DNA of 51,943 nucleotides from Alphaproteobacteria bacterium. GTDB taxonomy: Bacteria > Pseudomonadota > Alphaproteobacteria > UBA2966 > CAIVPW01. Under the pieces are notes generated by a model. It had not been told where the DNA came from and searched no databases. It saw nothing but the letters and a program-made list of their open reading frames with translations. Every line of letters starts with the position of its first letter. The first letter of the stretch is position 1. The DNA lies in assembly GCA_947481575.1 (NCBI GenBank), contig CANKGV010000017.1, positions 1-51,943 on the forward strand. The letters are read 5' to 3'. This document shows positions 26,786 through 29,309 of the stretch, piece by piece. Both the position numbers and the translations under genes were made by a program.

Positions 26786-27139
26786 TCACGTTTCTTCTGC
26801 CATCTGCGGCAGCACGAAGGGCGTTACCTTGACCAGGGGCGCCTGAAACAGCAGCCCGCCGCCGTGCACGCCGACGCCGGCGCGGTCGTAGATAAATGCA
26901 AACACTTCGTCGGCCCGGTCTGAGCTTACAGCGACCGTGAGAATATCGATTTCGCCCCAATCGCCGTAACCGACGGAGTGCGTGAGCCCCTGCCCGCGCG
27001 CCGAAGAAACATTGCCGGTGTTGATGCCAAGCTCGGTATGCAGTAGCCGGACCACATCCACGCCGCGACCCTTCGGCAGGAACCCTTTGATCAGCTTGTC
27101 GGTATGCGCGGGCCGCCGCGCGCGCCTGCGAATCGTCAC
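26786..27139 (-). CDS. PII-like protein, second of a pair
   Basis: A 117-residue protein of the GlnB-like ferredoxin fold: [32 protein letters not shown], a [20 protein letters not shown] strand-helix element and an ending [17 protein letters not shown] that matches the C-terminal half of PII-like proteins. It lacks the Tyr-51 uridylylation region of classical GlnB as far as I can see. The GTG start lies two bases after the stop of the first PII-like gene, so the pair are coupled, and both follow a DUF1538 membrane protein. I infer a regulatory subunit for that transporter-like protein. The ligand is unknown. Confidence 0.7.
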
Positions 27140-27141
27140 GT

Positions 27142-27549
27142 CTACGCCTTCACTGGCTCGAACTCCGTGGCCGTACCATGGCCATGGTCGTGCTCCGACA
27201 GTTTCTCCAGCACTTCGGGCGGAATGTACGTTGCCGCCTTGTCGAGCGGCGTGATGTACATGATGCCCATGCCGGGCGTGTCCAGTTCGCCGGCCAGGTA
27301 CATGCGCTCAAACACACGTTCCACCTGATCGGTCGAAACGACAATGTTAATGACTTCCTTTTCCACCTCGACGGCGACCCCGAACACGCCGAGGCGTTCG
27401 CGGATGCCCATGCCCTTGGCAAAGTGCACCGTGGCGCCTTGGGCCCCGGTTTCGTAGGCGACTTGAACGATCTTGTCGGCCACGCCGCGCTGGACCACGC
27501 ACGTGATCAGCGACACGTCGGTGAGAACAACGACTTCGCGCTTGCTCAT
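27142..27549 (-). CDS. PII-like protein, first of a pair, with His-rich tail
   Basis: A 135-residue PII-superfamily-like protein: VVVLTDVSLITCVVQRGVAD, a B-loop-like TGAQGATVHFAKG, then GIRERLGVFGVAVEVEKEV and VERVFERMYLAGELDTPG, ending MGIMYITPLDKA. The C-terminal tail EHDHGHG is His/Asp-rich and might bind a metal. The ATG at 27549 overlaps the DUF1538 stop by four bases (ATGA). The adjacent in-frame sequence upstream lies inside the DUF1538 gene and is not part of this protein. Partner and ligand are inferred only from coupling. Confidence 0.75.
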   Translation of the reverse strand: MSKREVVVLTDVSLITCVVQRGVADKIVQVAYETGAQGATVHFAKGMGIRERLGVFGVAVEVEKEVINIVVSTDQVERVFERMYLAGELDTPGMGIMYITPLDKAATYIPPEVLEKLSEHDHGHGTATEFEPVKA

Positions 27550-29309
27550 TGCTGGGGCACCCTCGCCTCTGCCCGCTCTTCGGCACGCATCCTGCGCCGG
27601 GCGGAATACTGCACCCACAGGCCCGCCGCCAGCACCGTGGTAATCGGCCACACCGAGGCCATGGTCAGAATGCCGAAGCCTTCCACTGCGTGAGTCGCAC
27701 TGCCGAAGCCCAAGCCCATCGCCAGAACGAGCGGCACGGTGACCTCGCCGGTTGTCACGCCCGCGGCGTCCCAGGCTACGTTCACGAATTCCTCGGTCGA
27801 GAACATCGTCAGCAGCACAGCAACGGCATAGCTGCCGACGATCAGCCACGCTAGCGGCAACGCAAAGATGATCTTCAGGATGCCGATCGCGAGCCCCACG
27901 CCGACACCCGCCGCGACCGTGTACATCAGCGTGTGCTTGCGGAACGCGCCGTTGGTTACGTCTTCGACCGTGACGCCGAGCGCATGCAGCGCCGGCTCCG
28001 CCATCGTCGCGCCGAAGCCCAGGGCCCACCCAAACGCCAGTGCGATCGAAATGCCGACCGGCACCGAGTACAGCGGCGAGTCCGCCACGCTTTCGAGCCG
28101 CGCGAACGCCGCCGCCACCGTGTCGCCGGACTGGCTGCCGAGCGCCGTCAGACCGTAGCTAAGTCCGAGATTGAACAGGCACATGCCGAGCAGGCACAGG
28201 CCGATGCCGTAGGCGACAATGCCAACTTCGCGCAGACGCTCGCGCAACACGAACTTAAGCACGATCATCAGAAACGCAACGAGCGGGAGGATCGCACGGA
28301 AGCCGTGGACTACTTCCACCCATGGGGATCGCTCGAACCATGGCAACTCGCTGTGTTGGGTGGCGAGGGCCGCTGCGGCGATAATCTGCTCCGGTGTTTC
28401 GGTCGCCACAACAAACAGCGCGAGCGCCATCACCAGAATGATTGGGTATAGCGACGCCAGCGTCACGATGCCGAAGCCCGACAGGGATGACGAACCCTTG
28501 CCGGCGGCGGACGCGATGCCAAGCCCGAGGGCGAGCACCAGCGGCACCGTGACCGGTCCAGTCGTAACCGCGCCGCAGTCCCACGCCAACCCCAGCGTGT
28601 TCACCAGGCCGGGGTTCCACGCCATGCCGACCACCATCAGCACGCACGGCACCATCGACCAATAGATCACCGGCTTCAGGCTCCAGCCGCGCAGGAACCG
28701 GATGGTTCCCACCACTGCCGCAATGCCGACGCCGGCGCCAACGGCCAATACAACCTGGTTCGAATGGAAGTTCAGCAACGAATAGAGATACGGCGCGTCG
28801 TGGGGACTCAGGATCGGGCCCACCGCCTGCAATGCCGAGATGGCCGGCTCGGCATAGGTCACGCCGACGCCGAGCAAGAACATCAGCAGAAGCACGATCG
28901 GCAGCCGCGACTTCTTCGGCAGAGTGTCGCCGATAATTTCGCCAAACGGCATCAGCCCGAGGCGCAGGCCTTCCATGAACAAGGTGAGCCCGATGATCAC
29001 CGCCACGAACCCCGCGACGATAAACCCCGCGTCCATCACCGGCTGCCGCAGGATCACGATCTGGAACAGGCCCAGGTACAGGCCGAGCGGCACCACCGTG
29101 CGCAGTTGTTCCGATACCCGGGTGCCAATGTAGGGGGCCAGCAGGCGGCGAATATCCATCGGCCGCAAGCGCAAGCGCTCCGGCCGGATCGGCACCATTG
29201 CGCCGGAGGAATCGACAAACGGCTTCGGCGTCAGCTCGTTGTAGCTGACGTACCGCTGGTTGATCGTCATCTCGCGGACGAACTCGCCGAAACGAATCTT
29301 CTGGGTCAT
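27546..29309 (-). CDS. DUF1538 membrane protein with internal duplication
   Basis: A 587-residue protein with about twelve hydrophobic segments and two homologous halves. Matching motifs: EPAISAL (154-160) and EPALHAL (438-444); AWDCGAVTTGPVTVPLVLA (242-260) and AWDAAGVTTGEVTVPLVLA (512-530); GFGIVTLAS (278-286) and GFGILTMAS (544-552). This internal repeat suggests a transporter built from two related halves, as in many secondary carriers. DUF1538 has no proven function known to me. It is translationally coupled to the two PII-like genes, which suggests PII-type gating. The trio lies between kdsA and eno. Confidence 0.85.
   Translation of the reverse strand: MTQKIRFGEFVREMTINQRYVSYNELTPKPFVDSSGAMVPIRPERLRLRPMDIRRLLAPYIGTRVSEQLRTVVPLGLYLGLFQIVILRQPVMDAGFIVAGFVAVIIGLTLFMEGLRLGLMPFGEIIGDTLPKKSRLPIVLLLMFLLGVGVTYAEPAISALQAVGPILSPHDAPYLYSLLNFHSNQVVLAVGAGVGIAAVVGTIRFLRGWSLKPVIYWSMVPCVLMVVGMAWNPGLVNTLGLAWDCGAVTTGPVTVPLVLALGLGIASAAGKGSSSLSGFGIVTLASLYPIILVMALALFVVATETPEQIIAAAALATQHSELPWFERSPWVEVVHGFRAILPLVAFLMIVLKFVLRERLREVGIVAYGIGLCLLGMCLFNLGLSYGLTALGSQSGDTVAAAFARLESVADSPLYSVPVGISIALAFGWALGFGATMAEPALHALGVTVEDVTNGAFRKHTLMYTVAAGVGVGLAIGILKIIFALPLAWLIVGSYAVAVLLTMFSTEEFVNVAWDAAGVTTGEVTVPLVLAMGLGFGSATHAVEGFGILTMASVWPITTVLAAGLWVQYSARRRMRAEERAEARVPQQ

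Follow-up and report, generated by a model that had tools for sequence, protein, structure and literature searches.

Three coupled genes were located on the minus strand of the window, by which the whole analysed stretch of 51,943 nucleotides is meant. They encode a membrane protein with two DUF1538 domains and two proteins of the PII type, PII-A and PII-B, and are referred to below as the module. The following features were assigned:

27546-29309, minus strand: DUF1538 gene, 587 aa, fused double-DUF1538 membrane protein (UmpA-like half and UmpB-like half)
29130-29309, minus strand: N-terminal extension of the DUF1538 protein, about 60 aa, candidate docking tail
28416-29078, minus strand: first DUF1538 repeat (UmpA-like), PF07556, 173 bits
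28848-28850, minus strand: Glu154 of the AEP motif, candidate ion-coupling residue
28578-28580, minus strand: Asp244 of the (W)D-x-G-x-VTT motif, candidate ion-coupling residue
27618-28280, minus strand: second DUF1538 repeat (UmpB-like), PF07556, 178 bits
27996-27998, minus strand: Glu438, second-repeat counterpart of Glu154, candidate ion-coupling residue
27768-27770, minus strand: Asp514, second-repeat counterpart of Asp244, candidate ion-coupling residue
27142-27549, minus strand: PII-A gene, 135 aa, PII family, PF00543 at E 1.4e-6
27358-27411, minus strand: MGIRERLGVFGVAVEVEK, conserved PII-A segment in the T-loop region, candidate target-contact loop
27178-27192, minus strand: His-rich tail of PII-A, HDHGH (H120-H124), peculiar to the window sequence
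26786-27139, minus strand: PII-B gene, 117 aa, divergent PII-fold protein, GTG start

The ATG of PII-A and the stop codon of the DUF1538 gene share a 4-base ATGA overlap, and PII-A and PII-B are separated by a 2-bp gap. The module lies between kdsA (29429-30292) and eno (25447-26727); these coordinates agree with the coupling and placement described in an earlier, sequence-only reading of the locus. The start codon of PII-B is uncertain because the first approximately 13 residues are poorly conserved. The gene order pyrG-kdsA-module-eno recurs in two relatives from the family (L214 and L213, the latter being the contig of L012) and is absent from all other fused loci, where the module stands among different genes. 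Scanning for promoters and terminators gave nothing above chance. Elsewhere in the window, at 32620-34317, two adjacent frames on opposite strands resemble ChrB-type domains (IACxWxVxRFxD), as judged by eye from the sequence.

The DUF1538 protein was matched twice by PF07556 (whole-protein E 3e-103), and the motif VTTG-x-VTVPLVLA was found in both halves, at residues 248-260 and 518-530, which bears out the earlier description of two matching halves. The best NCBIfam match of the N-terminal half was NF041627 (UmpA, 224 bits; cut-off 490) and that of the C-terminal half NF041628 (UmpB, 168 bits; cut-off 500). Since both scores stay well under the equivalog cut-offs, the protein was classified as a homologue of UmpAB and not as an UmpA or UmpB equivalog; close split homologues, at 350-416 bits, likewise stay under these cut-offs. 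Identity of the fused type to the Clostridial and the single-PII fused forms reaches only 25-32%. In the aligned UmpA, UmpB and fused halves, the column of Glu154 and Glu438 holds Glu in 98% of the sequences and is invariant in alignment A5, and the column of Asp244 and Asp514 holds Asp in all of them. Judged by this conservation, the four residues are natural candidates for the coupling of cations and protons.

An AF2 model of the DUF1538 protein (pLDDT 80.7, pTM 0.80), made from an alignment without Clostridial plasmid sequences, predicted about seven membrane helices per half, with breaks at both motifs. Loop charges, read by eye, would place both ends of the protein in the cytoplasm and the two halves in inverted orientation. 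No known fold was recognised: a Foldseek search with the model gave no fold relative in the PDB at E 0.001 (best E 0.027, TM about 0.1). The N-terminal extension has low pLDDT in the model. Its residues R6, G8, S22, N24, L26, P59 and Y60 are conserved in type I, i.e., the fused form with two PII genes; the extension hardly aligns in Clostridial forms and aligns weakly in other fused forms. It is a possible docking tail.

PII-A exceeds the Pfam P-II cut-off (29 bits vs 25), and its profile matches GlnB/GlnK at E 1e-7. PII-B alone gave no Pfam match, and 9 of the 50 sequences in its aligned set match PF00543 at E 0.01 or better. On the evidence of profile comparison (hhalign probability 99.7 against PII-A), a confident AF2 model (pLDDT 87) and the similarity of this model to structures of GlnK and PII in Foldseek (probability 1.00, TM about 0.65), PII-B is judged to be a divergent PII. 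In a tree of PII domains, PII-A, PII-B and the single/tandem type are separate. The T-loop is the main element by which PII proteins bind their targets (PMC10117731). Among 45 PII-A sequences, the T-loop region follows the pattern G-x-G-I/V-R-E-R-L-G, with G48 and G54 invariant and R50, E51, G57 and K64 conserved in at least 90%. The canonical nucleotide loop G-x-x-G-D-G-K is absent from both proteins (DTPGMGI in PII-A, VHGGGL in PII-B), which leaves nucleotide binding uncertain. The window genome carries three more PII genes with canonical scores (contigs C4 and C19; L169-L171), and PII-A and PII-B are therefore extra to its general PII set. Hetero-oligomerisation of PII-A with PII-B is plausible when compared with the tandem PII-PII genes of Clostridia described below.

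PII-A directly follows the fused DUF1538 gene on the same strand in 80 of 80 loci from Proteobacteria, Nitrospinota, Bdellovibrionota and other groups; at L025 and L057 only the start of PII-A could be read (contig end; N-gap). PII-B comes next in all 73 fused loci with enough sequence, and neighbouring genes mostly overlap by, or lie apart by, only a few bases. Within the window's class, scores of at least 167 bits with the PII-A profile were obtained in exactly 6 of 289 genomes, namely the six with a fused DUF1538 gene, while the next tier (43-61 bits) consisted of genomes with split umpAB. A mirror-tree correlation of 0.84-0.91 was disregarded as evidence, since shared descent confounds it. 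Two relatives of the window genome (G598, G599) carry split umpAB and the fused form together, and the two forms therefore probably have different roles.

The link extends to other architectures. A single PII gene follows each of the best 30 DUF1538 loci of a 398-genome phylum sample (28 split, 2 fused). Among 248 genomes of one order, umpA was present in 71, once only as a broken fragment; the PII subfamily followed intact split umpAB in 70 of 70 systems, always downstream, on the same strand and within 1.04 kb of the umpA or umpB match, and it was absent from all 177 genomes that lack umpA. On the strength of this reciprocal co-occurrence, and of that within the window's class, a chance neighbourhood was rejected. 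Sampling was biased towards high-scoring DUF1538 loci, and the relatedness of genomes makes the counts partly dependent; the Fisher test value is therefore no phylogeny-corrected probability. In five Clostridial plasmid records, which make up the coverage of Bacillota, the fused DUF1538 gene is followed by a tandem PII-PII gene of about 222 aa. One genome carries a single 642-aa frame UmpA-UmpB-PII (L140:1491-3419, minus strand), a natural fusion of transporter and regulator. Exceptions, with split umpAB and no adjacent PII gene, were seen in at least three loci (L143, L151, L159). Another genome (L154) has a fused DUF1538 gene with PII and, after it, an additional set arranged as PII, UmpA, UmpB. 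In RefSeq, the DUF1538 neighbours are labelled 'P-II family nitrogen regulator'.

Neighbourhoods in which DUF1538 usually lacks PII partners had been named in the sequence-only reading as speaking against it; PII genes were instead found at all 80 fused loci and all 70 intact split systems. Neighbourhood, co-occurrence and fusion evidence strongly supports a functional tie of the PII proteins to DUF1538, as that reading had proposed for a DUF1538 transporter.

Genes with cyclic-nucleotide-binding (cNMP) domains were found within about 5 kb of 35 of the 80 fused loci. In the flanks of the fused loci 63 cNMP open reading frames were counted in 562 kb, and in control regions 1 in 395 kb, a ratio that is inflated because some of these very domains had gone into the profile; in the window genome, the density of Pfam cNMP domains is 14 in 2,454 kb. 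The types of neighbour vary by lineage. An Na+/H+ exchanger (PF00999) adjoins the module in 11 loci (L003, L006, L008-L011, L014-L017, L054) and carries a C-terminal cNMP-binding domain where it was scanned with Pfam. In marine Alphaproteobacteria with small genomes, a cNMP-HlyD protein, a CHASE2-class III cyclase and one or two small cNMP-binding proteins are encoded upstream; the complete set of cNMP-HlyD protein, cyclase, small cNMP-binding protein, DUF1538, PII-A and PII-B lies on one strand in L045, L046, L050, L055, L069, L071 and L077. A cNMP-binding ion channel is the neighbour in L070. None of these types occurs in the window's 52 kb. In Bdellovibrionota (L033, L035, L042) a eukaryotic-type carbonic anhydrase adjoins the module, and in the purple sulfur bacteria Thiocystis and Thiodictyon (L066, L076) a SulP permease.

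The statement in the sequence-only reading that no DUF1538 function had been proven is contradicted by UmpAB of Halomonas zhaodongensis, in which two DUF1538 proteins form a heterodimeric Na+(Li+,K+)/H+ antiporter (PMC5484666). It is the one DUF1538 system found for which antiport was tested. PF07556, paired homologous halves and the AEP and D-x-G-x-VTT motifs are common to UmpAB and the window protein. The two differ in that UmpAB consists of two separate, co-dependent subunits whereas the window protein is one fused chain, and in that the module adds the N-terminal tail of about 60 aa and two PII genes; PII is nowhere mentioned in the UmpAB paper (PMC5484666). PF07556 is also listed among the key features of a model of growth pH (PMC13255231). 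As umpAB were the sole genes co-expressed when antiport was measured (PMC5484666), the PII proteins are more likely to be regulators than required subunits.

With a probability of roughly 0.6, we consider the module to be a monovalent-cation/proton antiporter of the UmpAB type with UmpA and UmpB fused, together with two dedicated cytoplasmic PII regulators that gate transport. The fused UmpA-UmpB chain would form one inverted-repeat membrane protein. PII-A and PII-B would probably assemble together and dock at its cytoplasmic face. Insertion of the T-loop would keep the transporter closed, as in GlnK-AmtB and SbtB-SbtA, and the closure would be released when a small molecule, probably a cyclic or adenyl nucleotide, alters the PII conformation. 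The data show the coupling of the genes, the homology to a tested antiporter, the reciprocal and near-universal co-occurrence, the DUF1538-PII fusion, the tandem PII-PII genes and the predicted PII fold of PII-B; we infer the gating of DUF1538 transport, the substrate, the physical docking, the direction of regulation, the ligand and the stoichiometry. Points that weigh against the reading are the scores far under the equivalog cut-offs, the single family member with tested antiport, the split loci with no adjacent PII gene, the missing GDGK loop and the lack of cNMP neighbour types in the window.

A fused DUF1538 protein that is gated by PII might carry another substrate, such as bicarbonate, ammonium or an organic acid; in that case the antiport of Halomonas would be a side activity or the property of a distant relative. 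The low identity of the fused type to the Clostridial and single-PII forms is consistent with this, as are the joint occurrence of split umpAB and the fused form in G598 and G599, which suggests different jobs, and the carbonic anhydrase (L033, L035, L042) and SulP permease (L066, L076) genes next to the module. The acidic and Thr/Gly motifs that the fused type shares with UmpA and UmpB, however, argue against it, together with the cNMP-domain Na+/H+ exchanger neighbour at 11 loci and the place of PF07556 in the growth-pH model (PMC13255231), and we regard a different substrate as unlikely. A metal-responsive switch operated by the His-rich tail of PII-A, which had been suggested earlier, is barely credible: HDHGH is present in the window PII-A, but this end of the protein varies, and conservation of the His cluster is missing in 44 other PII-A orthologues. 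For the system as a whole, a metal switch thus lacks support.

The DUF1538 protein might also serve mainly as a membrane anchor or a transport-sensing receptor that sequesters the PII pair, released PII proteins then acting elsewhere. PII proteins can act on several targets, according to a 2023 review of transporter regulation (PMC10710835), and here they are encoded with a membrane protein. The strict co-occurrence and the single-chain fusion nevertheless point to the transporter itself as the place where the PII domain works, and three other PII genes are available in the window genome for general duties; an anchor or receptor is accordingly quite improbable. More improbable still is mere co-expression, in which the PII genes would accompany DUF1538 but have another target and make no contact with it. 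The link was established from gene order and co-occurrence, yet it is maintained across four architectures, a fusion among them, in Pseudomonadota, Bacillota and further phyla.

The neighbouring cNMP-domain genes suggest, by analogy with SbtB, that the ligand of the PII pair is a cyclic or adenyl nucleotide (PMC8352866, PMC10117731). An extended form of the antiporter reading was considered, in which a widespread and so far unnamed family of PII-controlled antiporters, with a hetero-PII pair in the fused form, is wired to cyclic-nucleotide signalling through class III cyclase, cNMP-binding proteins and cNMP-domain Na+/H+ exchangers. It is put forward tentatively, as possible though doubtful. 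If it holds, PII control would reach beyond nutrient uptake to the homeostasis of cations and pH; gating by PII is known for the uptake of ammonium, nitrate, urea and bicarbonate. If the DUF1538-PII link is functional, Na+, K+ and pH homeostasis of many marine and halophilic bacteria would be under PII-type control, and an antiporter family so far studied without a regulator would gain one. Three adjacent genes, or the single fused chain, would then offer a simple test system for paired PII proteins. No report of the link was found in the open-access literature, and an unseen report elsewhere is possible; the parts are of known kinds, and their combination and its near-universal conservation appear to be undescribed.

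AmtB, SbtA, NrtABCD and UrtABCDE are named as PII-controlled transporters (PMC8352866, PMC10710835). In the PII passages of the review, no cation/proton antiporter is named among PII targets, and the known PII-gated transporters are said to work as trimers (PMC10710835). The trimeric targets are in real tension with the gating analogy, UmpAB having been reported as a heterodimer. Transporter and PII are encoded together in DUF1538-PII as in PII-gated pairs; homology of the transporter to Amt or SbtA was not detected by Foldseek against the PDB, and SbtA was absent from the matches listed for the DUF1538 model. The SbtA-SbtB system resembles the module in combining a two-inverted-repeat transporter with a PII-like protein from one operon, and SbtB senses adenyl nucleotides including cAMP (PMC8352866). 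It has one PII-like protein, whereas the module has two PII, and the profiles of PII-A and PII-B match GlnB/GlnK, not SbtB. With AmtB-GlnK the module shares an operon-encoded PII, GlnK plugging its transporter with the T-loop; AmtB, however, is a channel for ammonium for which no relation to DUF1538 was detected, and GlnK keeps the GDGK loop.

PDB entry 9p1x contains two different PII chains of 105 and 125 aa, which we take to be the NifI1/NifI2 hetero-PII. The entry was considered as a transporter complex with two PII proteins and rejected, since its sequence reads as NifI-type PII. Although the target of NifI1/NifI2 is nitrogenase and nothing ties the window module to nif genes, the two systems are alike in that two different PII proteins are used together.
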